Origin: Primulina eburnea
Lineage: Eukaryota > Streptophyta > Magnoliopsida > Lamiales > Gesneriaceae
Direction of reading: 5' to 3'
Length of the DNA: 64,000 bases
Assembly (NCBI RefSeq): GCF_022965805.1
Contig: NC_133103.1
Location: forward strand, 49,235,693 to 49,299,692
The position numbers and the translations under genes were made by a program. Shown here one piece after another: positions 8,181 through 62,298 of this stretch (position 1 is the first letter of the stretch; the number at the start of each line of letters is the position of its first letter). The notes below the pieces were generated by a model. That model was not told the origin of the DNA. It searched no databases and worked only from the letters and a program-made list of their open reading frames with translations.

Positions 8181-9300
8181 ATGCGAAAATATACAAATCC
8201 CGACTTGCTGGTTTTTGATCCTGAAATCGAAAGAACTGCCAGGAGATTAAGGAAAGCAAGACGAGAGGAGATTAAAGAAATGGCCGAAAACAGAGATCAT
8301 CAGAACGAGCTCCCACGAGAGGTGCCAATCCGAGAACATTTCCGCCCAGTCATTAACGCTCACTATTCTGGAATAGCTCGTGGAACCATTGCTGCTAATA
8401 ACTTCGAGCTAAAGCCCGCACTGATCAACATGGTTCAACAGAACCAGTTTGGAGGTGTAGCCACAGCAGATCCCCATCTTCATCTCAGGACTTTTCTAGA
8501 GATCACGGACACGGTAAAAATTAATGGTGTTTCTGACGAAATTATTCGATTGCGTTTGTTTCCGTTTTCTCTCAGGGATCAGGCAAGGAGCTGGCTCCAA
8601 TCTCTGCCGCTAGGGAGTATTACTACATGGGCAGATTTGGTCACAAAATTTCTATCAAAGTATTTTCCTCCTGCCAAGTCTGCTCAGCTGAAAATAGACA
8701 TCACTAACTTCAGGCAGAGGGAATTTGAAGTGTTATATGAGGCTTGGGAGAGATAAAAAGAACTGCTCAGAAAGTGTCCGAATCATGGATATGCAGAATG
8801 GGTTCAGATTGAGCTCTTTTACAATGGTCTGGATGGGCCAACTAGAGGCAATGTGGATGCAGCCGCCGGAGGTACTATTTTTTCTAAAACACCTGATGAA
8901 GCTTATGAATTACTTGAACAGATGACCATCAACAGTTATCAGTGGCCAAGTGAGAGATCAGGAGTACAGAGAACAGCTGGAGTGTATGCCGTAGACCCGA
9001 TCACATCACTGACTGCACAGGTTTCGGCATTGACATCACAAATTGCAGCGATGAACAAGCCAGACCAATCTACGTCTGATGTAGCTTTGGTAACTGCTGC
9101 GGAAGAGCCAGTTGTGGAAGAAGCTCAGTACATTAACAATCGTGGCTATGAAGGCTACAGAGGTAACCCTCCCCCTAACACTTATCACCCTGGTTTGAGA
9201 AACCATGAAAACTTTTCTTATGCAAACAATAAGAATGTGTTGAACCCTCCACCGGGTTCAATACATAAAATGGGGAAGGAAAGCCATCATTTGAAGATTT
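8181..9300 (+). pseudogene. Athila-type gag of element C
   Basis: The protein reads DPEIERTARRLRK, EVPIREHFRPVIN, ADPHLHLRTFLEITDTVKIN, LFPFSLRDQARSWLQSLP and KYFPPAKSAQLK, the core of a gypsy retrotransposon gag. An in-frame TAA at 8754-8756 interrupts it right after YEAWER, and the same frame goes on with KELLRKCPNHGY, PDEAYELLEQM and NSYQWPSER. A frameshift near 9275 moves the reading to the frame that opens at 9302 (VGTFVVESGKRMARTESRL). A C-terminal coiled-coil-like stretch (LDNLETHMASIGATLKILES) follows in that frame. No zinc knuckle is visible. Confidence 0.85.
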
Positions 9301-26402: not shown

Positions 26403-26502
26403 NNNNNNNNNNNNNNNNNNNNNNNNNNNNNNNNNNNNNNNNNNNNNNNNNNNNNNNNNNNNNNNNNNNNNNNNNNNNNNNNNNNNNNNNNNNNNNNNNN
26501 NN
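26403..26502. other. Assembly gap, 100 N
   Basis: Exactly 100 unknown bases. The sequences on the two sides are of different kinds, so the true distance is unknown. Confidence 1.
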
Positions 26503-32926: not shown

Positions 32927-33563
32927 TTCACCATACTGTCCAGACCTTAAACCGTCATCTATGGACCCTTAAACCTTCTGGAAACCGTCCCTTGTGTGCC
33001 CCCTAACCATGGCAGCCAATTTATGCCCCCCCCCCCCCCCCCCAAATTTATCACCAAGTTTGGCATCACAAAAACTAAGGTTATTGACATATTATGGGCC
33101 TTAGAAATGAAAATAAATGTATGGTAAAATGTTTTACATGCAAATATAATCAACTATACATAATTATGGTGTACGTAAATAAAAGATGTTTGAAAGAAAC
33201 GTTAAGGGTTGCCTTTGCGTATTAAAAAACAAGAAAAAAATGGTTTGCGATGCGAGGAGAGACGTTGGTGGAGATACGGGGATGCACCGCTGATTTTTCT
33301 CAAGATTTAGTGAGTTTCTTCCGAATCATGTGTTGTTTGGTTTTGTGTTTTGCTGCCAATAGAGTCTTAGTATTTTAGAGGGTGGGAGGCGGAGTTTGGA
33401 ATGAATCTCCCCGCCTGGCCGCCCTGCCTTGCCTCCCCCCCGTGGGGCAGCTTCGCCCCCCTTCCCTGGTCTACTGGGCCCATCTGTGTTGACCTTCCCC
33501 ACCCCACCCCCCACGGAGTGACGTGCACTCCCCTCATCTCTTCCACACATTCCTTGTTCACAA
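32927..33563 (-). other. Right remainder of the minus-strand LTR plus unassigned sequence
   Basis: The stretch 32927-33025 appears to continue the LTR interrupted at 30684. A run of 18 C at 33026-33043, read on the minus strand as AAATTT followed by G18, looks like an expanded polypurine tract. From about 33360 to 33540 the DNA is GC-rich with C runs (CCTCCCCCCCGTGGGG, CCCCACCCCACCCCCC). I recognise no gene; minus-strand ORFs here are Gly-rich and low in complexity. Confidence 0.4.
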
Positions 33564-35132
33564 TGTTTGCGACTTTGATTGTTGCACTCCCAAGAGCAGG
33601 TTGTCCACAAGTAGTATAATTCGGTGAGTCCGAATATCGTATCCACAGGGAAGCTAAGGTAATTACAAGTCCACTACAATGTCTTTTTGTTTTTGTTTTT
33701 GTTTCTTTTTAATTTTAATTGAATCTTTAATGGGTAAATTTTAATTGTTCAAATTTAAATTTAAGTAGTTGAGATTAAAGGATCCACTCTTGGTATTTTA
33801 ATAAAGTTAACATTAACGAACAATATTGAAATCCACTTAATAAAATGGTTCCAATATATTAAATAATCATATTTATATTATGTTATAAATTATAATCTTA
33901 TAAGTACATAATATATACCAAAACTTATAAATGTGGTCAAGTATTTATTGTGCTATATATATTTGTAAACACTAAATCAAGGTTCCCACTTTAAATGGTT
34001 GGTAAAACCAAACAAACATTTAAATGGTACCAATAAATTAATACTATAATATATTCATATATAATAAATCAAGGAATCCAAGTTAAATGGTTGGTAAAAC
34101 CAAACTAACATTTAAATGGTTCCAAGAATTTAATATTATAATATATTTATATATAATAACTCAAGGCATCCATTTTAAATGGTTGGTAATACCAAACTAA
34201 CATTTAAATGGTTCCAAGAATTTAGTGTAACATATAGCAACAATAAATCAAAACTCCCACTTATAAGTAGGGTATAAAAATGCTTAAAGAAATAAAATAA
34301 CATAAACAATAAATAATGATTAAATAATATAAAACATAGATTCTTACCTTATAATAACCTTATTATCATGCCAAGAGCTTCACCTTATCATCTCAACTTT
34401 AGGAAGTTAGCTATTCATTATTCAAAGTGTAAAACTTTGAATATGAAATTAACATGCTAATTATATTTAAATGAAGAAATAAAAGAAAAATATAGAGAGA
34501 AATATTATGAACTCAAAGATTTGTTCATAGAATGAGGGATATCTCAATACATTACAATGCACCCCTATTTATAGCCAAATTTGGGGAGACAACCACAAAT
34601 AAAATATTATTTTTTACACATAAGTCTTCATTGGTGTTCCAAGAAATTAATATTATATTGCACATCACTTTTGACAAGCATCTTCTCCGAATTTTCTTCT
34701 TCACATAAAATGAAACATGTGGATAATTGAGTTGTCTAGTTGTGGTATTTTTTCAGAATATTTGACCAAGTAGTTTGAGAGATATGGTCAAAATACTAGA
34801 GCATGGTAAAACTGCCACTCCTTCGGTAACTTTAATTGTTGCTTAATTTGATCCCAATTGTGAGAGGATTTTTATCTCATGCTTGCCACCAGTATTGTAG
34901 ATATTAACATCAACTTTCTACAGGTCCAAGAATCATCTTAATCCCATTTGCAACGCCAAGGTTATTCTTGTTTTATCGAACCTGTAAAAATAGTAAAAAC
35001 TTATAATTACACAACAACTTATATTTTATACAATTTATTATAAAACATATAATATTTAAAAATTTAATAAAACAAAAACTATATATTTATATTATAAAAC
35101 ATTTAATTAATGTACAATTTTTATGTTTATCA
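33564..35132 (-). repeat. 3' LTR of element F
   Basis: 1,569 bp, TG...CA. It contains about three tandem units of roughly 90-100 bp (33985-34235), each with AAATGGTTGGTAAAACCAAAC and CATTTAAATGGTTCCAA. A TATA box is on the minus strand at 34565-34574 (CTATAAATAG). The polypurine tract TTGGGAGGTG (minus) borders it at 35133-35142. Confidence 0.95.
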
Positions 35133-36395
35133 CACCTCCCAACCAGCTTATTGCTAGTCCCTAGCAATTTAAGCGTTAATAGCAATACAAAACATATTGA
35201 TTAATTTAAATAGAAATGTAATCAGAACTATCTAAGTGTTTAAATAAAATTGAAAACTGTCAAAGTTATATCAAGATCATCATAATTATAATTTATGAAA
35301 TAATTTGAGATGATTAATTCAAAGCTTATTTTAGGTAGTTAAATGTACACGGCCTTCAGAAATTCCTAGTAAGAGTCTCAACTCCATATCCTCACAGGTT
35401 AATAAATGTTTCAATTTATGGCAACGATTTCTCTCATGGAGTTGGAATACAGATAAATGCTCAGAAAAATGGTTTACAGAATGCAGACAGACAAACGAGC
35501 CAAACTAATCAAAAGATAGAAAATCAATTGATTTAAAATCCAGTTGTTCTTATTATATTTTTTTTTTTTCTGATTTTTTTTTTTTTTTTTACATCATGGA
35601 ATCAGACTAAGTTTATGCTTTTTGACCACATATTTATTTAATTTGTACAATGTATTTCTCTCTTTCTTTTTTTTATTTTTATTTTTTTATTTTTTTATTC
35701 TTATGAGAGAAAAATGGGTCGCAGCATATAACTTAAAAACTACATAGATCTTCAACATCTTTCTTTTTGTATTTTTCTTTTTTTTTTCTTTTTTTTTTTC
35801 AGGAAATATATATTTTTTTTTTCAAAATAAGAACTCAAGATCTAAACAATAGATAGTCTCTCTCATGATCAATAAAGGCTCGAAAGCTGTTTTCTCAGTC
35901 CTCTCCACTCACTCACAAAATATGTGTGAGTTCAAAAATTTTAGGCACTCTTATAAGGTATATCTTGGGCCATATACTTTACTACCTAATTTTATCACAA
36001 TGGTTAATCACTCAAAAAGATTTCATAAATCATATTTTTATATTGATCAGAATATTAAAAATGACCTTTTTTCAAATAAAATTTAAACATTCTTAAATAG
36101 ATTAATGCATGTTCTAATTTAAATCTTTCAAATATGTAATGTATGACATTTTTGCAAAAAATTACTAAGGTACAAACAATAAACATGGTTTTATTTTAAA
36201 ATAATATTTAATTTTTTTTTAAATTTGTTTTTTTTTTTTTTTTTTTATATGTGTTCTCCCCCCAATCAGAATATGACATTGTCCCTAATGTCAAAATAGC
36301 TATTAATAAAGAGTACATAATGAAAGAGATATCACCTGGAACTTTATTGAAGATAACAAACTGAAACAAACGCAAACCAATCCACGACTTTTGAA
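35133..36395 (-). other. 3' non-coding interior of element F
   Basis: AT-rich, with long T runs on the plus strand (about 35555-35590, 35760-35830, 36210-36250), which are A runs in the element's sense. No gene is seen. It separates the LOG stop codon from the polypurine tract. Confidence 0.6.
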
Positions 36396-37034
36396 TCAAT
36401 GATCCAACTTCCTTTTCTTACTGCTTGATTGCGACCAATTGATCTTTGTTATCATCGGATCAGGCTTATGAACAAAAGCTTCCAAATCATCAATTAATTG
36501 ATCGGCAGTCGAAGCACAGATGAGCATCCGTCGTGAATTTTCTGAAATGAAATTCTGTTCCACAGCTTTATCAAGAAATGTCAACAAACTGTCATAATAA
36601 TTATTGATATTCAACAAGCCCACGGGTTTATTATGGATATTAAGTTGTGCCCAAGAAACAGTGTGAAAAATTTCTTCTAATGTACCAAAACCACCTGGTA
36701 GTGCGATAAAAGCATCAGAATTTTCAATCATTTGAGTGATTCTTTCATACATAGAAGAAACTTTTAATTCCTCCCCAATCGTAATACCTGTAATATTTCC
36801 TTCAGCTAAAGCTATAGGAATAATACCCAATACCTGACTACCTCCAAGATGAGCAGATGTTGAAACAGATCCCATTAACCCAATATTACCTCCCCCATAT
36901 ACCAAGTGAATTTTTCTCTCAGCCAATATCTTTCCAAGATTATTCGCTGCTTCTACAAACACTTCATTTTTTCCAGGACTCGACCCACAAAATACACAAA
37001 TATTTTTCAATGTTTGTGCAGAGGATCCAGTCAT
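36396..37034 (-). CDS. LOG: LOG-type cytokinin riboside 5'-monophosphate phosphoribohydrolase
   Basis: 212 aa, the usual length of plant LOG proteins. LOG enzymes release active cytokinin bases from their nucleoside monophosphates in the cytosol. Visible motifs: KNICVFCGSSPG (10-21), LVYGGGNIGLMGSVS (44-58), a conserved Arg at 98 in SSMYERITQM, the signature PGGFGTLEE (113-121; host copies usually have Tyr for Phe), WAQLNIHNKPVGLLN (128-142) and DKAVEQNFI (155-163). The C-terminus SSSKKRKLDH has a basic KKRK patch. The start at 37034 is chosen because homology begins just after it; the frame is open further upstream. Plant LOG genes usually have several introns; this copy has none. It lies between pol and the 3' LTR of gypsy element F, same strand, 213 bp after the Cys-rich ORF. 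Identity is firm; activity is inferred. Confidence 0.93.
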   Translation of the reverse strand: MTGSSAQTLKNICVFCGSSPGKNEVFVEAANNLGKILAERKIHLVYGGGNIGLMGSVSTSAHLGGSQVLGIIPIALAEGNITGITIGEELKVSSMYERITQMIENSDAFIALPGGFGTLEEIFHTVSWAQLNIHNKPVGLLNINNYYDSLLTFLDKAVEQNFISENSRRMLICASTADQLIDDLEAFVHKPDPMITKINWSQSSSKKRKLDH

Positions 37035-37059
37035 GTTTTTACTTTCCTTTTTTTTTTTT

Positions 37060-37078
37060 CTGCGAAAGTAGAAAGAAA
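37060..37078 (-). promoter_or_regulatory. Possible 3' splice acceptor ahead of LOG
   Basis: On the minus strand TTTCTTTCTACTTTCGCAG ends 25 nt before the LOG ATG: a pyrimidine tract followed by CAG. A spliced subgenomic RNA, as for retroviral env, could use it. Not proven. Confidence 0.35.
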
Positions 37079-37085
37079 GATGAGA

Positions 37086-37098
37086 GATTTTATAGGGG
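37086..37098 (-). promoter_or_regulatory. Possible TATA box of LOG
   Basis: On the minus strand CCCCTATAAAATC lies about 52-64 nt upstream of the LOG ATG, which would leave a leader of roughly 25-30 nt. It could give LOG its own promoter inside the retrotransposon. Confidence 0.4.
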
Positions 37099-37247
37099 TA
37101 ATATGTTATCATGACAAAACTATGGGTCACAGCTGTAAACAGAATAAATAGTAAAAAAAATAATGACACACATGCTTATAAACAGTAGTGTGATTGTGGC
37201 TCACAATTTTCCTCTGGTTTTACGTCCAGAAACGGCTTCAACGCCTT

Positions 37248-37793
37248 CTATGAGTCGAGGATATGCTTCCCATCCAATTTTCTTATAAATTGGCAAACAG
37301 GGTCTTTTTTAGTCAGATTCCCAAGACTATGACGCTCATCTTGAAATTGTTTCCATAAACGGAGAAGTTCAATATGCACATGTCCACTAGAATGCGTCTC
37401 AAGAGTCAATAAGATGTTATCTAAAGACTCCTTACTCAGCCCATTCTTAATGAAATCAATTTTATCTTCTCTGTTATTGGAAACACATCCCAAAGATCTG
37501 CATCGTTTGTCACAAGTCCATCTTGCACACTTATGACAAACCCCTAAACTTTTGGCCCTTCGTTTTTTCGCATAAGTGCTTTTTCCTAATCCAGGCAAAT
37601 ACCGAATAAGCAATGATTGTGGAACTTCTCCTCCTAATCGGACCTTAGCTTCTATTACAAGACGAATATCTTCTGGAATTCCTTTTTGCATTAGTAATCT
37701 CAATCTTTCACACCTTCCTGCATAAATTTTTCTTAGAACATTTTCAGAAACAGAGGGAAAATATTTACAAATTTTTGAGAGAATTTCATCCAT
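37248..37793 (-). CDS. Cys-rich basic protein, carlavirus NABP-like, in gypsy element F
   Basis: 181 aa, intact, ATG to TAG. An N-terminal helical-looking part (EILSKICKYFPSVSENVLRK, RCERLRLLMQKGIP) is followed by GLGKSTYAKKRRAKSLGVC and a cysteine cluster C86-x2-C89-x4-C94-x3-C98-x4-C103, then REDKIDFIKNGL and a C-terminal helical part (HVHIELLRLWKQFQDERHSL). A GxGxSxYAxxRRA-like basic block next to C-x2-C...C-x4-C resembles the cysteine-rich nucleic-acid-binding proteins of carlavirus-like plant viruses, several of which suppress RNA silencing. That link is motif recognition only. It is not a retroviral zinc knuckle, as no CCHC spacing is present. It lies about 190 bp after the pol end and upstream of LOG. 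It may bind nucleic acid; real function unknown. Confidence 0.8.
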   Translation of the reverse strand: MDEILSKICKYFPSVSENVLRKIYAGRCERLRLLMQKGIPEDIRLVIEAKVRLGGEVPQSLLIRYLPGLGKSTYAKKRRAKSLGVCHKCARWTCDKRCRSLGCVSNNREDKIDFIKNGLSKESLDNILLTLETHSSGHVHIELLRLWKQFQDERHSLGNLTKKDPVCQFIRKLDGKHILDS

Positions 37794-37984
37794 TTTGAAA
37801 AGAAAAGAAATGATTTTTTTTTTTTAAATTTTTGTATCAGCAATTGTGGGAAACTGATTTAACCGACTATGAGAGTCACGGAGTACCGTTATCCGCCATT
37901 TAACCGGGAAAATAAAAAGATTAAGAAAACCTGAAATAAAAACAAACAATAATCAAATGCAACAAAAAAAAAAAAAAAAAAAAA

Positions 37985-40900
37985 TCAAGGATCAGAAAGG
38001 GAAATAAACTCTTCTTGAAAGATTTCATTTTCCAAAAATGGTTTAAGCCTTTGTCCATTCACTTTAAAAACATCACCATTTTTAGGATTTTCAATATCCA
38101 CAGCTCCATAAGGATACACATGCTTTATAACATATGGGCCTGTCTATCTTGATCGTAATTTTCCTGGGAATATGTGAAGTCGAGAATTATAAAGCAAAAC
38201 TTTTTTACCAATCTCAAAAGATTTTCTAAGAATTGTTTTATCATGAAATGATTTGATTTTTGCTTTATAAATCCTTGAATTCTCATACGCATCATTTCTG
38301 AGTTCATCAAGTTCATTAAGTTGCAATTTACGCAATTTGTTGGCATCATCCATGCTTGAATTTAAAGTTTTTATCGCCCAATAAGCTTTATGTTCCAATT
38401 CCACAGGCAAATGACAATGTTTTCCATAAACCAACCTATAGGGAGACATATTCAATGATGTTTTAAAAGCTGTTCGATATGCCCACAGTGCATCATTAAG
38501 TCGCAGAGACCAGTCTTTTCTATTTGAGTTAACAGTTTTTTCCAAAATTTGCTTTATCTCCCTATTAGCTAATTCAACTTGTCCATTTGTTTGAGGATGA
38601 TAAGGAGTTGTTACTTTGTGAGTAATACCATATTTTTTCATTAATGAAGCAAATGGTTTATTAACAAAGTGAGTTCCCCCATCACTTATCATAGCTCGAG
38701 GAATTCCGAATCTACTAAAAATATTTTCTTTCAAAAATTTGATGACGATTTTATGATCATTTGTTCGACATGGAATTGCCTCTATCCATTTGGAAACATA
38801 ATCAACTGCAACTAAAATATACAAGTATCCAAACGACGGTGGAAAAGGTCCCATAAAATCTATTCCCCAACAATCAAATATTTCAATTTCAATGATAGGA
38901 TTCAAAGGCATCATGTTTCTTTTTGAAATCGCACCCAATTTTTGACAATTTTCACAGATCTTGCAGATTTCGTGGGTGTCTTTAAACAAAGTGGGCCAAT
39001 AAAATCCACACTGCAAGATTTTTGCAGCTGTTTTCTTTGAAGAAAAATGTCCCCCGCATGCTTCTGAATGACAAAATTTAATGACACTACTTACCTCATT
39101 GTCGGGTATGCAACGTCGAAAAATTTGATCCGGACAATACTTGAACAGATACGGATCATCCCAATAAAAGTTTTTTACCTCATTCAAAAATTTTCTTTTA
39201 TCTTGGGAACTCCATTGCGGTGGCATTTTTCCTGTCACAAGAAAATTTACTATGTTAGCAAACCAAGGTGTAGTAGTAACTGAAAATAGATGTTCATCAG
39301 GAAAATTATCGTTAATTGGTGTCATTTCAAAAGATGATCCTGTTACTAGTCTCGATAAATGATCGGCTACGACATTCTCGGTTCCTTTTTTATCTTTGAT
39401 TACAATGTCAAATTCTTGGAGCAACAAAATCCATCGTATCAGTCGTGGCTTTGCATCCTGTTTGGTCAACAAATATCTAATAGCAGAATGATCAGTAAAC
39501 ACGATAGTTGTTGATCCAATCAAATAAGAACGAAATTTATCTAATGCAAATATTACAGCAAGTAGCTCTTTTTCAGTTGTGGAGTAATTCATTTGAGCAT
39601 TGTTTAAAGTTCTACTTGCATAATATATCACATAAGGCTTACCGTTTCTTCTTTGACCCAATACTGCACCGACTGCATAATCACTCGCATCGCACATGAT
39701 TTCAAATGGTAAAGACCAATCAGGAGGTTGCATGATAGGAGCTGATGTTAAATGTCGAATGATTTTATCAAAAGCATTTTGACATTCTTGAGTCCACTCA
39801 AATGCACTGTCTTTTGTTAAGAGGTTACAAATGGGTTTAGAGATTAAACTAAAGTCCTTTATAAACCTCCTATAAAATCCAGCATGTCCCAAAAATGAGC
39901 GAATTTCTTTAATGGTTTTTGGAGGGGGTAAATTGGCAATGACATCAACTTTTGCTTTATCGACTTCAATTCCATGAGATGACACGACATGTCCCAAAAC
40001 AATTCCAGAAGTAATCATGTAATGACATTTTTCCCAATTTAAAATAAGACCTTTTTCCTCGCATCTTTTTAAAACTTTTTCCAAATTTTCAAGACAATTA
40101 TCAAATGTATTCCCAAAAACAGTTAAATCATCCATAAAAATTTCCAAACAATTTTCAACCATGTCGCAGAAAATGCTTAGCATACATCTTTGAAATGTTG
40201 CTGGGGCATTGCATAAACCAAATGGCATCCTTCTGAATGCAAATGTTCCAAAAGGACATGTGAATGTAGTTTTTTCTTGATCTTCGAGTGCAATGGGAAT
40301 TTGATAATAGCCTGAATATCCGTCAAGAAAACAGTAGTAGGGATGACCTGCTACTCTTTCTAAAATTTGATCCAAAAATGGTAATGGAAAATGATCTTTT
40401 CTAGTGGCGTCATTTAATTTTCTATAATCAATACACATCCGCCAACTAGATGGGACTCGACTTGTTAACAATTCACCTTTTTCATTTTTTATCACTGTGA
40501 TGCCAGATTTTTTTGGAACTACTTGTGTTGGGCTTACCCACTTACTATCAGAAATAGGGTAGATAATTCCAACATCAAGTAGTTTGAGAACTTCAGTTTT
40601 CACAACATCTTTCATGTGTGGATTTAATCTCCTTTGTGGTTGTTGAGATGTTTTTGCATTTTCTTCTAAGTGAATTTTGTGTGTGCAAATTAGTGGATTA
40701 ATGCCCTTAAGATCTTTTAGTGTCCAACCAATTGCATTTTTATGTCTTTTAAGCATATCAACTAATTTACCTTCTTGATTACTTGAGAGTTTGGAAGAAA
40801 TTACCACCGGATATGTTTCATCTTCTCCAAGAAATGCATACTTCAATTCTTCTGGCAAGGGTTTTAACTCCAATACTGGTGGTTCGTCTTTGTTCTCATA

Positions 40901-43231
40901 TTTTTCATCAAATTCTTTCTCTGATCCTGGTAACGAGTGATACCTGAAAAAATCGTCAAGATCAATTTCAATATTTTCTTTAACAGTTTCAATTGAACAA
41001 ATATCTAATTGATCACGAGTACTCCCTTCTTGAATGTTTTCTTCCACAAGAGTTTCAATAAGATTTTCATCTTCACTTTCATCTCCTTTGTCATGTGGTT
41101 GCTTACAAAGATTAAAAACATTGAGCTCCAAGGTCATGTTACCAAATGACAACTTCATTATTCCATTCCTGCAATTTATAAGAGCATTAGAAGTTGCTAA
41201 AAATGGACGACCTAAAATTACAGGAATTGCATTACAAGCTTCAATAGGTTGTGTATCTAAAACTATGAAATCGACAGGATATACAAAGTTATCAACTTGG
41301 ACCAACACGTCTTCTACCATACCTCTTGGCACTTTAACAGATCTATCAGCAAGTAAAAGTGTTACCGAAGTAGGTTTTAACTCGCCTAGATTGAGTTCTT
41401 GATAAACTGAATATGGAAGTAAATTCACACTAGCTCCAAGGTCAAGCAAGGCTTTTTTAATCTTTCGTTCTCCAATAATACACGAAATAGTAGGACAACC
41501 AGGGTCTTTGTATTTCAAAGCATTATTATTTTGAATGATTGCACTTACTTGTTCGGCTAAAAATGCTTTCTTTTTCACATTCAATTTTCTTTTCACAGTG
41601 CACAAGTCTTTCAAAAATTTGGCATATGATGGTACCTGTTTTATTGCATCTAATAAAGGAATATTAACTTTTACTTGTTTAAAAATATCATATATATCAG
41701 AATTCAAATTTGATTTTTTTGTATTTTTCAATGCATGAGGGAATGGTGGTGACACTGTCTGTTGAACCTCCTCTTCGCAAGTTATGGGTTCCACTTCCTT
41801 ACCCTTTGGAGTTGATTTATCATCATCTTCACAAGGTTCAAGAATGGATTTTTCCACAACCTTACCACTTCGAAGGGTAATAACAGATTTTACCTGATCC
41901 ATCGGTTGAGTTCCAGAAGTTCCAATTTGTGTATGATGATCCTTGGGATTAGGCAGAGGTTGTGAAGGAAATTTACCTTTTTCATGAACATTAAGTGCAG
42001 ATGCAAATTTAGCAAGAGTATCTTTCAAGTCTGTCATGGTTTGAGCAGTTTGAGTATTGATAGACTCTTGCTTTGCAATGAAAGAATTCAATGTATCTTC
42101 CAAATTTCTTTTCGGCGGAGGAACATAAGGTGCATAATTTTGAAAATTTTGTTGATTTTGAAAATGTGGTTGCGGAAATTGTGCAGCATTATCATTCCTC
42201 CAACTAAAATTTGGATGATTTCGCCAACCTGGATTGTAATTTTGAGAAAATGGTTCAAAATTTGGCCTTTTGAAATTGTTCAAAACATTGGCTTGCTCAT
42301 GGAGACATTCTTTAAAAGAGGGCAAAGTGGGACAATCTTTTGTAAAATGATCACTTGTATCACAGATGTGACACACAATTTCTTGAACAGATTTTAATTG
42401 ACCATTCTTTTTCAATTCAAGTGCCTCAACTTTTCTTGCCAAAGAGGTAAATCTAGCTTGAAGATCATGTTCATCTTTGAGAGTGTACATACCTCCACCA
42501 GATGTAGGAGATTGAATCTTGTTTGATGGTTCGATTGTACCTATAGTGTCCCAATTTTGAGCATTTTCAGCTAATGAATCGAGATACTCAATTGCCTCGT
42601 TCGGATCTTTATCTTCAAATGTTCCATTACACATAAATTCAACCATTTGCCTATCTTTAGGTGTTAAGCCTTCATAAAATTGAGAAACAACTCTCCAAAT
42701 TTCAAAACCATGATGTGGACAAAGATTAAGTAATTCTTTGTATCTATCCCAACACTGATAAAAAGTTTCTCCTTGTTTTTGAGTGAAAGTGATGATTTGC
42801 CTTTTGAAAGAATTTGTTCTATGAGATGGAAAAAACTTTTTCAAAAATTGTTGTTGCAATTCATCCCAAGTTCGAATGGATCCCGATCTAAGATTTTGTA
42901 GCCAAGTTTTAGCTTTATCTTTTAAAGAAAAAGGAAAAAGCTTAAGGCGAATGGTGTTCATGCTACAATTTAGATCATTATATGTGTTGCACACTTCTTC
43001 AAACTCTCGTAAATGCATGTATGGATTTTCAGAATCTAAGCCATGAAAGTTGGGTAAAAGTTGGATAATACCAGGCTTAAAATTGAAATGAGATGCATCA
43101 GGGGGAAAAACTAGACATGAAGGTGCACTAGTACGTGTAGGATTCATGTGATCTCTAAGTGTTCTTCGTCTATCATGATCATGTTGAGATTGAATTTCAT
43201 CTTCATTTTCTTGGATGGTTTCTTCCGCCAT
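37985..43231 (-). pseudogene. gag-pol polyprotein of element F, one nonsense codon
   Basis: One frame opens at [12 protein letters not shown] (43231) and stays open for 1,695 codons to TAG at about 38144. The same frame then goes on for some 52 codons to TGA at 37985. The stop sits in GKLRSR*TGPYVIKH, where relatives have Trp, so it fits TGG to TAG. Domains by approximate residue: gag to 285, knuckle [14 protein letters not shown] (287-300), protease [12 protein letters not shown] (about 593), RT with FMDDLTVFG (about 1031), RNase H from [10 protein letters not shown] (about 1177), integrase zinc binding HSEACGGHF...CKICENC (1386-1428), and catalytic [14 protein letters not shown] and VELANREI. 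All catalytic acids are present. An upstream Met at 43330 lies in the leader and is less likely. The product could be nearly complete if the tail is dispensable. Confidence 0.95.
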
Positions 43232-43395
43232 GTTTTGTAAAAATAAAGGGTTATTTCGAATGAGTCGACCACTAAGTGTACGTGACCAAATGCTCATGCA
43301 AATGCAAAACAAAAAGAAAAAAAAACACACAAAAGCAATAAAAAGAAAAATAAACTTTAAACAATATTAAATAGACTTGAAATTAAATTATACTT

Positions 43396-43412
43396 CCCCG
43401 GCAACGGCGCCA
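43396..43412 (-). other. Primer binding site of element F
   Basis: On the minus strand TGGCGCCGTTGCCGGGG lies six bases after the 5' LTR, identical to that of element C. It fixes orientation and the Athila/Tat assignment. Confidence 0.88.
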
Positions 43413-43418
43413 AAAACT

Positions 43419-44988
43419 TGTTGCGACTTTGATTGTTGCACTCCCAAGAGCAGGTTGTCCACAAGTAGTATAATTCGGTGAGTCCGAATATCGTATCCAC
43501 AGGGAAGCTAAGGTAATTACAAGTCCACTACAATGTCTTTTTGTTTTTGTTTTTGTTTCTTTTTAATTTTAATTGAATCTTTAATGGGTAAATTTTAATT
43601 GTTCAAATTTAAATTTAAGTAGTTGAGATTAAAGGATCCACTCTTGGTATTTTAATAAAGTTAACATTAACGAACAATATTGAAATCCACTTAATAAAAT
43701 GGTTCCAATATATTAAATAATCATATTTATATTATGTTATAAATTATAATCTTATAAGTACATAATATATACCAAAACTTATAAATGTGGTCAAGTATTT
43801 ATTGTGCTATATATATTTGTAAACACTAAATCAAGGTTCCCACTTTAAATGGTTGGTAAAACCAAACAAACATTTAAATGGTACCAATAAATTAATACTA
43901 TAATATATTCATATATAATAAATCAAGGAATCCAAGTTAAATGGTTGGTAAAACCAAACTAACATTTAAATGGTTCCAAGAATTTAATATTATAATATAT
44001 TTATATATAATAACTCAAGGCATCCATTTTAAATGGTTGGTAATACCAAACTAACATTTAAATGGTTCCAAGAATTTAGTGTAACATATAGCAACAATAA
44101 ATCAAAACTCCCACTTATAAGTAGGGTATAAAAATGCTTAAAGAAATAAATATAACATAAACAATAAATAATGATTAAATAATATAAAACATAGATTCTT
44201 ACCTTATAATAACCTTATTATCATGCCAAGAGCTTCACCTTATCATCTCAACTTTAGGAAGTTAGCTATTCATTATTCAAAGTGTAAAACTTTGAATATG
44301 AAATTAACATGCTAATTATATTTAAATGAAGAAATAAAAGAAAAATATAGAGAGAAATATTATGAACTCAAAGATTTGTTCATAGAATGAGGGATATCTC
44401 AATACATTACAATGCACCCCTATTTATAGCCAAATTTGGGGAGACAACCACAAATAAAATATTATTTTTTACACATAAGTCTTCATTGGTGTTCCAAGAA
44501 ATTAATATTATATTGCACATCACTTTTGACAAGCATCTTCTCCGAATTTTCTTCTTCACATAAAATGAAACATGTGGATAATTGAGTTGTCTAGTTGTGG
44601 TATTTTTTTCAGAATATTTGACCAAGTAGTTTGAGAGATATGGTCAAAATACTAGAGCATGGTAAAACTGCCACTCCTTCGGTAACTTTAATTGTTGCTT
44701 AATTTGATCCCAATTGTGAGAGGATTTTTATCTCATGCTTGCCACCAGTATTGTAGATATTAACATCAACTTTCTACAGGTCCAAGAATCATCTTAATCC
44801 CATTTGCAACGCCAAGGTTATTCTTGTTTTATCGAACCTGTAAAAATAGTAAAAACTTATAATTACACAACAACTTATATTTTATACAATTTATTATAAA
44901 ACATATAATATTTAAAAATTTAATAAAACAAAAACTATATATTTATATTATAAAACATTTAATTAATGTACAATTTTTATGTTTATCA
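43419..44988 (-). repeat. 5' LTR of element F
   Basis: 1,570 bp. On the minus strand it runs from TGATAAACATAAAA to GTCGCAACA. The TATA box CTATAAATAG is at 44420-44429 (minus). It matches the 3' LTR except for three one-base length differences in T or A-rich runs. Confidence 0.95.
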
Positions 44989-45940
44989 TCTTAGCAAAGT
45001 CTGGAATGAAGCCTACTGAATACGGTACAGATTCTCCAAATGTCTGTTCTTGAGCAAGAAGTTGCTCATTCATCATTCTCAAATGGTCAGATAGAATGTG
45101 GATTACATTTTGATCCTGAGCAGCAGTTGGAATCATAGCATCAAAATTAGACTGAAGAGTCTTCAAAACTAATTCCAGCTTATTTCGTTTCAGCTGCTCA
45201 AGAATGAAACTTCGGCGTCTCATCGCTTCAATCACATTTTCAGTCTTGGCAAGTTCAAACACCTTCTCTTCATTCTTTACCATTTTACGGAATGCACCTT
45301 GTGTTCAGAAGAATGTGAGAGGATGGAAAACTCGAACCTTATGCCAATCATCAAAGAAAGTCATCCCTTCATTGGCAGATCTTTCAATCTCTTCCAAATG
45401 AAGATCAATACCAGTAAAAACAGATGATTTGACGCCATGAAATTGTGATTCTGCAACGAGTTTCCCTTTGCATTTATCTCAAAATGAGGCAGGCATCACG
45501 GGTCGAAAAGCAGAAGATCCTGCAAAAAATTCACGAATAACAACTCCAGACGAGGGTCTGAAGGTCGGAGAAGTAGAAGAGGTGGTAGCAGAAGTGACTG
45601 CTGGCTTAGTGACCGGAACAGATACTTGTACAGAAGATGTGGCTTCTGGAAAAACTTGTCTCAACAGGACAATGTCTAAATCAGCAATGACTGCTGTTTT
45701 CTTGATGCGAAGCACCGTGCGAGCCTTCTTCTTGCTGGGGGTGGCAGGGACAGATGCTTGTGTAGGAGCAGCAGACTCCTCAGAAACTGTTTTATCAGAA
45801 TCAGTGAAGATAACCACTTTTTTTCTTTTGATCTTCTTCCCTTGAACCTCAGTCTGAGCATCTCGAATTTCCCTTTTTAGAGCAACAAATTCTGCCACAG
45901 AAGACGGCCTCAAGGCGAGCACATTATCAGCATCGGCCAT
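44989..45940 (-). pseudogene. Unassigned ORF of the retroelement hosting F, two in-frame stops
   Basis: Reading from 45940: MADADNVLALRPSSVAEFVA, a basic Ser/Thr/Pro/Val-rich middle (KKIKRKKVVIF, SATTSSTSPTFRPSSGVVIR), TGA near 45465, then LVAESQFHGVKSSVFTGIDL, a second TGA near 45305, then MVKNEEKVFELAKTENVIEA and SYSVGFIPDFAK-like text up to the insertion of F. The start follows a primer site and LTR within 100 bp, where gag would be expected, but no gag, protease or RT motif is seen. I do not recognise the family. It may belong to a non-autonomous retroelement with a plant-specific ORF. Both stops would suit CGA-to-TGA or TGG-to-TGA changes. Confidence 0.55.
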
Positions 45941-57857: not shown

Positions 57858-60800
57858 ATGGACGGAAGACCAGTGAGAAACAACCGCAACCCTCGTTACA
57901 ACAATCGTAACAACAACCAAAATGATGAGGATGCACATCAACAACCCTAACAACAACCACCAGCAGTTGGCCTCAGTCAAGTGGATTTGATGGCTATAGC
58001 CACAATTGTGGCAACCACGCTACAAGGGTTGGTGAACCCTAATGCTAATCATCCACCACCGCCACCACCTCCAGCTCAGAATGGGACTAAACAGCACTAT
58101 GAGGCTCTCCGAAGAGCAAGAGTCCCTAACTTCGATGGAAGCACCGATCCAGAGGTCGGACAAAATTGGATGAAAGAAGTGGAAAATCATCTTCGACTAC
58201 TTGAGGTTCCCCAAAGGATCAGAGTAGAGGTGATTACACCTTTTCTTGTCGTTAAAGCTGCCAAATGGTGGGAAGGAGTCTCGCCAGCTATGTTAGAGGC
58301 GGGACCTATCACTTGGCAAAGGTTCCGAGAGGCATTTCTGAGGCAGTACTTTCCGACAGCAGTTCGAGTGCAGAAGCTGTCAGAATTCGAAAGCTTAGTG
58401 CAAGAACCAAATATGACAGTGGTGGAGTACTCATCCAAGTTCCACTCATTGGGAACTTACTCACCAACCATCATGGGAGACGAAGCTTTGAAGATGCATC
58501 GCTTCAAGAAGGGATTGAACAGCCGTATTCAATCTGCCCTTGCCATTATCGAGCCCAACAGTTTTGATGAATTGATGGGAGCAGCCATCAAGGCTGAGAA
58601 CGATATTAAGAGGCGTGAAGGCGAGAACAAACTCAAACGTCCTCAGTCAAATCAGTACCAACAGGGCCAACAATTCAAGAGGCCTAGGTTCCCAAGCAAC
58701 CAATTCGCCAGTGATCCAGCCAAAGGAACCACTTCTTCTCCATCAAGCAAAAAAGGAGTCAAGTGCCAAAATTGTGGATTCACTCACACGGGTGAATGCC
58801 GTAAGAATTCAAGAGCTTGTTTCCATTGTGGAAAGATGGGTCATCGCATTGCTCAATGCCCTTTTCCAGATCCGAGTAATGGTCCAGCAGGCGGAGCAAC
58901 TCCAAGCAAGCCTAAGGAGAACAAGCCCAATGCTCGAGTTTATGCTATCACTCAAGAAGATGCTGATAACTCGAATGATGTCGTAGCTGGTACCATTCTA
59001 ATCAATAATATACCTGCTTATGTGTTATTTGATTGTGGTTCTACGCATTCATTCATGTCTAAGAGATTTGCCAAGAAATTAGGAGCGAAACCTGATAACT
59101 TAGAAGAACCATATAGAGTAGCCACTCCTGCAAATCAAATTTTAGAAACTCGCACTCTATATCGGGGTATTAGTGTTCTCATAGAAGATCAGAAAATTCA
59201 AGGCAAACCTTATTCAACTAAACATGGTGGAATTCGACGTAATTCTTGGAATGGATTGGTTAACCAAGAATCATGCTTTAGTGGACTGTCACGGAAAGAC
59301 GGTAACCATCCAAACTCCACACCAAGGGAAACTTTTATTTCATGGCAAGACCAAAGAACGAAGGACTCTCCTTTCTGCTTCTCAAACTTGGACAGCCATG
59401 AAAAATGGAGAAGAAGTTTACCTAGCCATGTTAAGCGAGGTAAAACAAGAAATTGCACCTACACTAGAAGAGATTCCGGTAGTGCAAGAATTCCCGGATG
59501 TCTTTCCTGAAGAACTCCCGGGTGAACTTCCTGATTGCGAAGTGGAATTTGAGACTAACTTAGTGCCCAATGCTACACCAATCTCAAAAGCACCATACCG
59601 AATGGCTCCAGCCGAGTTGAAAGAACTCAAAGAACAACTTCAAGAATTGTTGGACAAGAAGCAAATCCGACCAAGCGCATCTCCGTGGGGAGCTCCTGTC
59701 CTATTTGTAAAGAAGAAGAACGGAAGTATGAGGATGTGTATCGATTACAGAGAGCTGAACAAGATCACAATAAAAAACAAGTATCCGCTTCCAAGGATAG
59801 ATGACTTGTTTGACCAACTCAAAGGAGCTTCAGTCTTTTGCAAGCTCGACTTAAGGTCAGGCTACCACCAATTGAAGGTCAAATCAGACGATATCCCAAA
59901 GACAACCTTCAGGACAAGGTACGGACACTATGAGTTCACAGTGATGCCGTTCGGATTAACAAATGCTCCGGCAGTATTCATGGATCTCATGAACAGAGTG
60001 TTTAAACCATTTCTTGACAAGTTTGTTGTGGTATTCATCAACGACATACTAGTATATTCGTCAAGTGAAGAAGACCACAAAGAACATTTTCGTCTCACCC
60101 TCCAGAAGCTGAGAGAAAAGGAATTATACGCCAAGTTCAAGAAATGTGAATTCTGGTTAGATAGCGTCGCATTCTTGGGACACATAATAGCAGCAGCATG
60201 AGTATCTGTGGACCCTAAGAAAGTGGAGGCAATCTCGGATTGGCCTACACCAAAGAATGTGACAGAGGTACGAAGCTTCTTGGGGTTAGCAGGCTATTAT
60301 CGAAAATTTGTTGAAGGATTTTCCTCAATAGCCATACCTCTCACCAAGCTCACACAGAAGAATTATAAGTTTCAATGGAGTGAAAAATGTGAGCAAAGCT
60401 TCGAGACTTTGAAGAAGAAGCTTACATCCACACCAGTGCTAGTATTACCTATGGAAGGTAAGGACTACACCGTCTACAGTGATGCATCCAAAGAAAGTTT
60501 AGGATGTGTACTCATGCAGGAGGGAAGGGTGATTGCATACGCATCAAGGCAGTTGAAGCCGTATGAACAAAATTACCCAACGCACGACCTCGAACTAGCT
60601 GCAGTGGTATTCGCACTAAAGATTTGGAGACATTATCTTTATGGAGCCAAGTGTGAGGTGTTCACCGATCATCAAAGTCTCAAGTATTTGTTCACTCAAA
60701 AGGAACTAAATATGAGACAAAGGCGGTGGATTGAACTCATAAAGGATTACGACTTGACGATAAACTACCATCCAGGCAAGGCCAACAAGGTAGCAGATGC

Positions 60801-62298
60801 TTTAAGTCGAAAGAATATGAGGAAGGTAATCCTGACATCACTTTCCGCACAACCATGTCTTCGAGAGACAATCAAGATAAGCCAAGATAGATATTCCGCT
60901 TTGGTGAAACTGAAAGAGCAAGCCAAAGAAGGGAAATCACAAGATTTCGAAATAGATAACAAAGGAATCTTGTGGATGAAAGGACGATTGTGCGTACCAG
61001 ACATTGATGACCTTCGACAAGAAGTAATGTCTGAAGCACATAAGTCAAAATTTTCAGTTCATCCTGGCAGTACCAAAATGTACAGACACTTGAAGGAAAA
61101 TTTCTGGTGGAGTGGAATGAAGAGGGACGTGGCAACGTTCGTTTCTAAATGTCACGTGTCACAACAAGTCAAAGCAGAACACCAAAGACTTGGTGGACTT
61201 CTTCAACCATTAGAAATCCCGGAATGGAAATGGGAACATATTTCCATGGATTTTGTAGTAGGCTTACCCAAGTCGAGACAAAGTCATGACTGCATCTGGG
61301 TAATCGTAGATAGACTCACGAAATCGGCGCATTTCTTACCTGTCCGCATGACCTATAATCTGGACAAGCTAGCCAACTTGTATATGAATGAGATCGTGCG
61401 GTTACATGGAGTACCAGCTAGCATATTGTCAGACAGAGATCCTAGATTTACATCTCGATTTTGGAAGAGCTTTCAACAAGCTATGGGAACCAAGGTTACT
61501 CTTAGTACGGCTTATCACCCTCAAAGCGGCGGCCAAACTGAGAGGACCATTCAAACTCTAGAAGATATGCTGAGAGCATGTGCTCTAGACTTCAGTGGTA
61601 ATTGGAGCGAACATCTGCCCTTAATCGAGTTCGCGTACAATAATAGTTACCACAGTAGCATTGGAATGGCACCATACGAAGCTCTGTATGGACGAAAGTG
61701 TCGATCACCACTATATTGGAACGAAGTAGGGGAAAAAGCCATTGTTGGACCCGAAATGATCCAAGAAACAGTGGATAAAGTTGCCGTGATCAAGGAGAGA
61801 TTAAAAACTGCATAAGATCGACAGAAAAGCTGGGCTGACCTTAAAAGAAGACCCGTGGAATTCGAAGTTGGAGAGAAGGCGTATGTGATAGTGTCACCCA
61901 TGAAAGGTGTTATCCGATTCAATAAGGCTGGGAAACTGAATCCCAGATACGTCGGACCATTTGAAATCCTCGAGAAAGTGGGAACACTAGCTTACAGATT
62001 AGCACTTCCACCCGACATGTCAAGAATTCACAATATATTTCACGTCTCGCAGCTGAGGAGATATATTCCTGATCCAAGTCATATTCTGGAAGCTGGACCA
62101 CTTCTGGTTGAGAGCAATCTAAATGAAGAGCTGAAATATGAAGAGATTCCGATTCGAATTGTGAATAACAAAGACCAAGTACTGAGGAGACGAACTATTC
62201 CGTATGTAAAAGTACAATGGTCCAACCATACCGAAAGAGAAGCTACTTGGGAGTTAGAAGAAAAGATGCGAGATCAATACTCTTATCTCTTTGAGTAA
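57858..62298 (+). pseudogene. gag-pol polyprotein of chromovirus G, inactivated
   Basis: Gag starts at 57858 (MDGRPVRNNRN) and meets TAA at 57948, where Gln would suit. The rest of gag holds WWEGVSPAML and LRQYFPTAVRVQKLSEFESL, then knuckle CFHCGKMGHRIAQC (about 58820-58861). Protease reads LFDCGSTHSFMS. An extra A near 59205 shifts the frame. RT has [12 protein letters not shown] but its catalytic box is FINDILVYS, Asn replacing the first Asp (codon 60040-60042). TGA at 60199-60201 precedes RNase H ([13 protein letters not shown]), and integrase follows ([30 protein letters not shown]). One zinc-binding Cys looks replaced by Ser (codon 61159-61161). TAA at 61813-61815 precedes the tail with LNPRYVGPFEIL and a chromodomain ending EREATWELEEKMRDQY. 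Clearly dead. Confidence 0.95.

Follow-up and report, generated by a model that had tools for sequence, protein, structure and literature searches.

A LOG-family gene with a changed base pocket as a candidate accessory gene of an Athila-like retrotransposon in Primulina eburnea

Element structure and gene content

A stretch of 64,000 nucleotides from Primulina eburnea (NCBI RefSeq assembly GCF_022965805.1, contig NC_133103.1, positions 49,235,693 to 49,299,692 of the forward strand) was analysed, hereafter called the window, with emphasis on a LOG-family gene carried by an Athila-like Ty3/gypsy retrotransposon. The element occupies positions 33567-44988 on the minus strand and is structurally complete. 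Its LOG frame starts with a minus-strand ATG at 37034 and runs uninterrupted for 212 amino acids (aa) between pol and the 3' long terminal repeat (LTR), while the plus strand across 36396-37034 is full of stop codons. The protein matches the Pfam Lysine_decarbox (LOG) domain with an E value of 7.5e-38, and the closest solved structure is that of AtLOG3 (2a33, E 1.8e-63), which aligns over residues 8-202 with no gap. The window copy has the features by which the family is recognised, namely this domain, the PGGxGTxxE motif and the catalytic Arg and Glu. The original prediction, made from the DNA letters, had described a complete intronless LOG frame of 212 aa on the strand of a young gypsy element, between pol and the 3' LTR. 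This description and its coordinates (36396-37034) proved correct, the gene lying on the minus strand, gag-pol being intact and the two LTRs being identical at 1566 of 1568 aligned positions, with two 1-base gaps as the sole differences. A second intact extra frame at 37248-37793, resembling the cysteine-rich proteins (CRPs) of carlaviruses, had been overlooked. The features of the element, all on the minus strand, are as follows.

33567..35132, minus strand: 3' LTR, direct repeat with 43421-44988
35133..36395, minus strand: 3' noncoding region, with a purine-rich tract adjoining the LTR and a GGACAATG...TTGGGGG motif common to a related element end (contig L001, below)
36396..37034, minus strand: LOG-family frame, 212 aa and stop codon, from open reading frame (ORF), Pfam and residue comparison
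37248..37793, minus strand: second accessory frame, 181 aa, similar to CRPs or nucleic acid binding proteins (NABPs), from Pfam Carla_C4 and a basic stretch with a Cys cluster
38144..43330, minus strand: intact gag-pol frame, 1728 aa, from ORF and Pfam
43331..43420, minus strand: leader with primer-binding site TGGCGCCGTTGCCGGGGA adjoining the 5' LTR, which we take to be of the tRNA-Asp type
43421..44988, minus strand: 5' LTR, direct repeat with 33567-35132

The LTR boundary beside the flank is uncertain by one base. Pfam domains of gag-pol comprise gag, a zinc knuckle, protease, reverse transcriptase, RNase H and integrase; neither a second (archaeal) RNase H nor a chromodomain was found in gag-pol, which was searched in four pieces at E values up to 1. 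By this domain makeup the element appears to fit the Athila clade as described in PMC6317226. Around the element (33540-33590 and 44960-45020) a matching 5-bp target-site duplication is absent, the flanks reading TAAGA and AACAT on the element strand, as against 93.4% of the elements surveyed in PMC6317226 that have one. Recombination between copies, a deletion in the flank or an assembly problem could account for this, and it bears on the window copy, not on membership of the Athila clade.

Catalytic site and base pocket of the LOG frame

Residues were compared between two sets of LOG proteins. The first, termed transposable element (TE)-like, comprises the window copy and the best 120 of 7983 matches to it, an insertion in an element having been seen for hardly any of them; the host set comprises 120 matches found when AtLOG3 and At5g11950 were used as queries in a search of their own. 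Length limits left 117 of the 121 TE-like rows and 114 of the 120 host rows for the comparison. Of these TE-like rows, 113 retain the catalytic Arg and 114 the catalytic Glu, the window copy having both (Arg98 and Glu121), and 97 show the canonical residue at each of the eight catalytic and phosphate-loop positions. The base pocket is another matter. At three pocket positions, the host LOGs have His-Lys-Glu in 114/114 rows and the window copy has Tyr-Ile-His (Y96, I99, H124). At position 99, that of the adenine-binding Lys, only three TE-like rows (P0106 from Xanthoceras, P0111 and P0112) carry Lys, the other 114 having Met, Leu or Ile; at position 124, that of the prenyl-pocket Glu, 110 rows carry His or Gln and three carry Glu. 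The roles of these base- and prenyl-pocket residues follow PMC4979012 and PMC5379747. The window copy therefore has neither the adenine-binding Lys nor the prenyl-pocket His and Glu by which a cytokinin LOG is identified from sequence.

These changes bear on the view that the element carries an ordinary cytokinin-activating LOG, which keeps host cells dividing or meristematic, perhaps helped by the CRP-like gene. Retention of the catalytic dyad and the PGGxGT loop is in keeping with it, as are the three Lys-keeping rows, which retain the host pocket and branch outside the rest; the CRP of chrysanthemum virus B (CVB p12) is reported to be a transcription factor that causes hyperplasia (PMC12172455), so that both extra genes could favour proliferation. 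The adenine-binding Lys is nevertheless missing in the window copy and 113 other rows, the prenyl-pocket Glu is missing in 114 of the 117, and a Lys-to-Ala change at the equivalent site of the type II bacterial LOG Cg1261 completely abolished hydrolysis of adenosine monophosphate (AMP; PMC5379747). We consider this view rather unlikely. The original prediction had the window LOG making active cytokinin, a claim not supported in view of the changes of H to Y96, K to I99 and E to H124, all at sites invariant in the 114 host LOGs. Drawing a cytokinin role from the PGGxGTLEE signature alone was rejected. Cytokinin activation by the window LOG is on these residues doubtful, and its substrate preference has probably changed. 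The associated idea of cell proliferation could still hold, chiefly by way of the CRP-like gene and of those LOGs that retain the Lys.

Relatives and phylogeny of the LOG frame

Many of the 120 listed matches stand for clusters of several members, and at least 28 of them are genes of Reevesia pubescens, on 15 chromosomes as judged by gene names. In a quick tree with a midpoint root (69 TE-like and 45 host rows after length limits and thinning), all TE-like rows fell on one side of a branch and all host rows on the other, with a Shimodaira-Hasegawa-like approximate likelihood ratio test (SH-aLRT) value of 100. The split was recovered with support of 99/92 in a reduced tree of 38 TE-like and 27 host rows, further thinned, with tails cut and two bacterial outgroups. 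The three Lys-keeping rows branched outside the other 66 TE-like rows in the quick tree (99) and outside the other 35 in the reduced tree (100/99), suggesting a pocket change later than the capture and, on the reduced tree, a single one. The trees also suggest, without showing it, that the TE-like LOGs arose before the sampled host LOGs diverged; a long stem and host paralogues that were not deliberately sampled leave long-branch effects possible.

One LOG relative, from Xanthoceras (P0002), is fused to a gag-pol piece like that of the window (50% over 50 aa). Two further LOG relatives, P0006 and P0070, are listed with longest contigs of 8723 and 4511 bases, values also given for the CRP-like proteins P0152 and P0135, respectively, and the members of each pair may share contigs. 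We infer that most TE-like relatives lie in elements. A one-off capture of LOG was rejected on three grounds: the relatives form one clade, 28 of the 120 listed matches are Reevesia pubescens genes spread over chromosomes, and P0002 is joined to gag-pol sequence. Placement on a LOG tree, proposed as a check on the original prediction, set the window LOG and its relatives together in a single clade, with the sampled host LOGs outside it. Overall, a full-length LOG in a young, complete element that does not look like a one-off is supported, and the production of active cytokinin is not.

C-terminal tail of the LOG frame

Tail patterns were scored on all 121 TE-like and 120 host rows. An LxLxL motif occurs within the last 14 residues of 99 TE-like rows and of no host row, and a basic [KR][KR]x?[KR] stretch within the last 25 residues of 109 TE-like rows and one host row. 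Among the 98 LxLxL rows within the 117 compared above, the commonest end is K-[LR]-[KR]-L-[DN]-L-[ST]-L-x-L, in which Leu at -5, -3 and -1 is partly due to the filter and Leu at -7 (90/98) is independent of it. We take this tail to resemble a nuclear localisation signal followed by an EAR motif, and the LOG protein is, going by its tail, probably nuclear. The window LOG ends in SKKRKLDH, and its close kin P0001, P0004, P0010 and P0022 likewise have the basic part and no LxLxL; five changes of the LxLxL motif are required on the reduced tree.

Such a tail also allows a reading in which catalysis is irrelevant and the LOG fold serves as a nucleotide-binding scaffold for a nuclear, corepressor-recruiting extension, in line with the altered pocket and with the changed catalytic residues of some copies. 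This we hold to be unlikely, given that the catalytic Arg and Glu are kept in all but four and three TE-like rows, respectively, and that in the window copy the catalytic residues are present but LxLxL is missing.

The CRP-like accessory frame

The 181-aa frame scored 31.0 bits against Pfam Carla_C4, above the cut-off of 20.9, and 22.4 bits against Viral_NABP, just under the cut-off of 23. Its relatives form large plant protein clusters of up to 566 members, and one from Rhamnella (P0202) is joined to a pol end like that of the window (77% over 101 aa). Three alignments combined the window frame with 16 (A1), 21 (A2) or 115 (A4; 116 rows) of the 120 listed matches. In A4, 97 of the 116 rows matched Carla_C4 and 97 matched Viral_NABP (E up to 0.001). 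The window frame has a basic KKRRAK followed by C-x2-C-x4-C-x3-C; the four Cys (columns 86, 89, 94 and 98) are present in 107, 112, 115 and 113 of the 116 rows, and a basic K[KR][KR][KR]A[KR] stretch in 94. AlphaFold models of the protein reached a mean predicted local distance difference test (pLDDT) score of 52.8 when built from 17 rows and of 67.8 when built from 116. A profile search of the PDB returned nothing below E 0.51, a BFVD structure search with the low-confidence model gave 0 matches at E up to 0.001, and a scan of viral contigs with LOG, the CRP-like protein and A1 found no relatives. Viral CRPs are described as silencing suppressors (PMC12172455). The gene could have come from a virus or have arisen in a retroelement.

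Gene order and selection in a related element end

Contig L001, of 3330 bp, is filed in the record of a Candidatus Nomurabacteria metagenome-assembled genome (MAG); its plant-type retroelement sequence is probably plant contamination of the bacterial MAG. The gene order is as in the window, with a pol end (integrase 79% over 348 aa) followed by the CRP-like gene (71%). The first 75 bases from the CRP-like stop codon align between window and L001 at 85%, and a GGACAATG...TTGGGGG motif lies further downstream in both, this second mark resting on the motif, as the alignment there is weak. The window LOG sits between these two marks, and since L001 has no LOG there, it seems that some members of the family acquired the gene or that others lost it. 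Copies lacking LOG had been named beforehand as a finding that would speak against the original prediction; L001 is one such case at that place, and many relatives with full-length frames go the other way.

Between window and L001, the ratio of nonsynonymous to synonymous divergence (dN/dS) was 0.27 for the CRP-like gene (bootstrap 0.18-0.42, 180 codons) and 0.11 for the integrase region (0.05-0.16, 409 codons), with dS near saturation in the latter. For LOG, a neutral simulation (substitutions only, starting from the window LOG, 300 runs per identity level) retained, at protein identities of 80, 67 and 62%, an intact frame in 41/300, 5/300 and 3/300 runs and all eight catalytic and phosphate-loop residues in 53/300, 17/300 and 4/300 runs, respectively. 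This supports but does not prove selection on the frame, because the database holds predicted proteins only and broken copies are invisible in it. Column variability was correlated between TE-like and host LOGs (Spearman 0.45 over 182 columns). Capture of genes by LTR elements has a precedent in Bs1, and L001 lacks LOG at that place, but a processed LOG copy carried as a passenger without effect is very unlikely in view of the relatives that, at about 60-70% identity, are still full-length and mostly retain the catalytic residues, the rarity of intact frames under neutrality (1% of runs at the lowest identity) and the specific tail common to TE-like LOGs.

Proposed role

Based on the above, we propose, with a probability of roughly 55%, that an Athila-like lineage acquired LOG as a processed copy of a plant gene and has since kept it, downstream of a carlavirus-CRP-like gene, as a functioning accessory gene. 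LOG would be expressed from the element, perhaps via splicing; pyrimidine-rich CAG sites precede its ATG, by 25 bases, and that of the CRP-like gene, by 137 bases. The protein would enter the nucleus and still split a nucleoside monophosphate, though not the standard cytokinin ribotide, and in most copies it would recruit a TOPLESS-type corepressor. Together with the CRP-like protein it might blunt host silencing or alter host gene expression during the life cycle of the element. More specifically, the two genes may form a host-manipulation cassette directed against silencing or immune signalling, in which a virus-type CRP acts beside a nuclear, TOPLESS-recruiting LOG hydrolase with a new substrate (e.g. 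a modified or signalling nucleotide); we offer this version tentatively and put its chances well below even.

Several observations weigh against a working accessory gene. No LOG match was found in the 983 bases of L001 that follow the CRP-like gene, although LOG may lie past the contig end. Broken copies were out of view among predicted proteins, and the 120 that are listed represent the most similar of the 7983 matches. Columns of the TE-like LOGs show more variation than those of the host LOGs (mean entropy 0.87 vs 0.36 bits), and 20 of the 117 TE-like rows depart from the canonical residue at one or more catalytic or phosphate-loop positions. The window copy itself has only the basic part of the tail and no LxLxL, and base-pocket residues vary somewhat among LOG types (PMC5379747).

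Other features of the window

Three further pairs of direct repeats (2227-2667/17894-18333, 6475-8049/12161-13736 and 55051-56305/62348-63602) are 98.2-99.3% identical and are probably LTRs of other elements. A distant pol-like match at 59599-61776 (plus strand, 26-37%) and a gag-like match at 8247-9032 (plus strand, 34%) probably also belong to other elements. An assembly gap of 100 N lies at 26403-26502.

Previous accounts and significance

That gypsy elements can carry LOG is already known (PMC9289625). Section 12 of that paper reports a YgdH (LOG) domain in gypsy consensuses of Citrus sinensis and C. clementina, and of Populus trichocarpa without the n5 filter, and credits Steinbauerova et al. 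2011 for the YgdH domain in gypsy elements. The section gives the presence of the domain only and does not deal with pocket changes, a tail, a partner gene or phylogeny. In the open-licence literature it was the sole account of YgdH in gypsy retrotransposons that we found. In the same literature we found nothing on the changed pocket or on the tail, and nothing on CRP-like genes in LTR elements, on lysine decarboxylase as an additional ORF of LTR retrotransposons, on a carlavirus-type nucleic acid binding protein in LTR retrotransposons or, judged by titles and the start of abstracts, on a retrotransposon-encoded EAR motif or TOPLESS link. The words YgdH and carla(virus) are absent from the available parts of a review of extra ORFs (PMC7264820) and of the survey PMC6317226, and in a glyoxalase paper (PMC11168688) an accession among Carla_C4, Viral_NABP, PF01623 and PF05515 is assigned to another domain.

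With the present analysis, a brief remark in the literature on a LOG domain in gypsy elements becomes a testable case of a retroelement accessory enzyme, combining kept catalytic residues, a changed base pocket, an apparent nuclear and corepressor tail and a neighbouring gene of a virus silencing-suppressor type. Relatives with the host pocket and with the new pocket are natural test pairs for the re-tooling of a host enzyme by a retroelement and for the functions of extra genes in plant retroelements.

Comparison with known systems

The Citrus and Populus gypsy elements are alike in having a LOG-family domain as an extra domain of a plant Ty3/gypsy element. A Phalaenopsis gypsy lineage with an N6-methyladenosine (m6A) RNA demethylase (PMC9289625) is similar in that a lineage fixed an extra enzyme, proposed there to affect host control; it differs in the enzyme and in that activity was assayed there, whereas the window LOG is known from its sequence.

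Plant LOGs (AtLOG3, 2a33; At5g11950, 1ydh) share with the window frame the sequence family, PGGxGTxEE, the catalytic Arg and Glu, Met95 and Trp128. The window LOG departs from them in the changed His96, Lys99 and Glu124 and in being an uninterrupted frame inside a retroelement, and the TE-like LOGs in their extra basic/LxLxL tail. The CRP (NABP; Carla_C4, Viral_NABP) of carlaviruses and mandariviruses resembles the second frame in a basic stretch followed directly by a four-Cys cluster that starts with C-x2-C. The carlavirus finger, given for one carlavirus in PMC8839810, is C-x2-C-x12-C-x4-C, whereas the window frame has the shorter spacing described above and lies in a retroelement. The Athila clade of OTA Ty3/gypsy elements (PMC6317226) agrees with the window element in lacking an archaeal RNase H and in having a large non-polyprotein region with extra frames; the extra frames of the window, at 181 and 212 codons, are not Athila ORF-1 and fall under the 250-codon cut-off for extra ORFs used in that survey.
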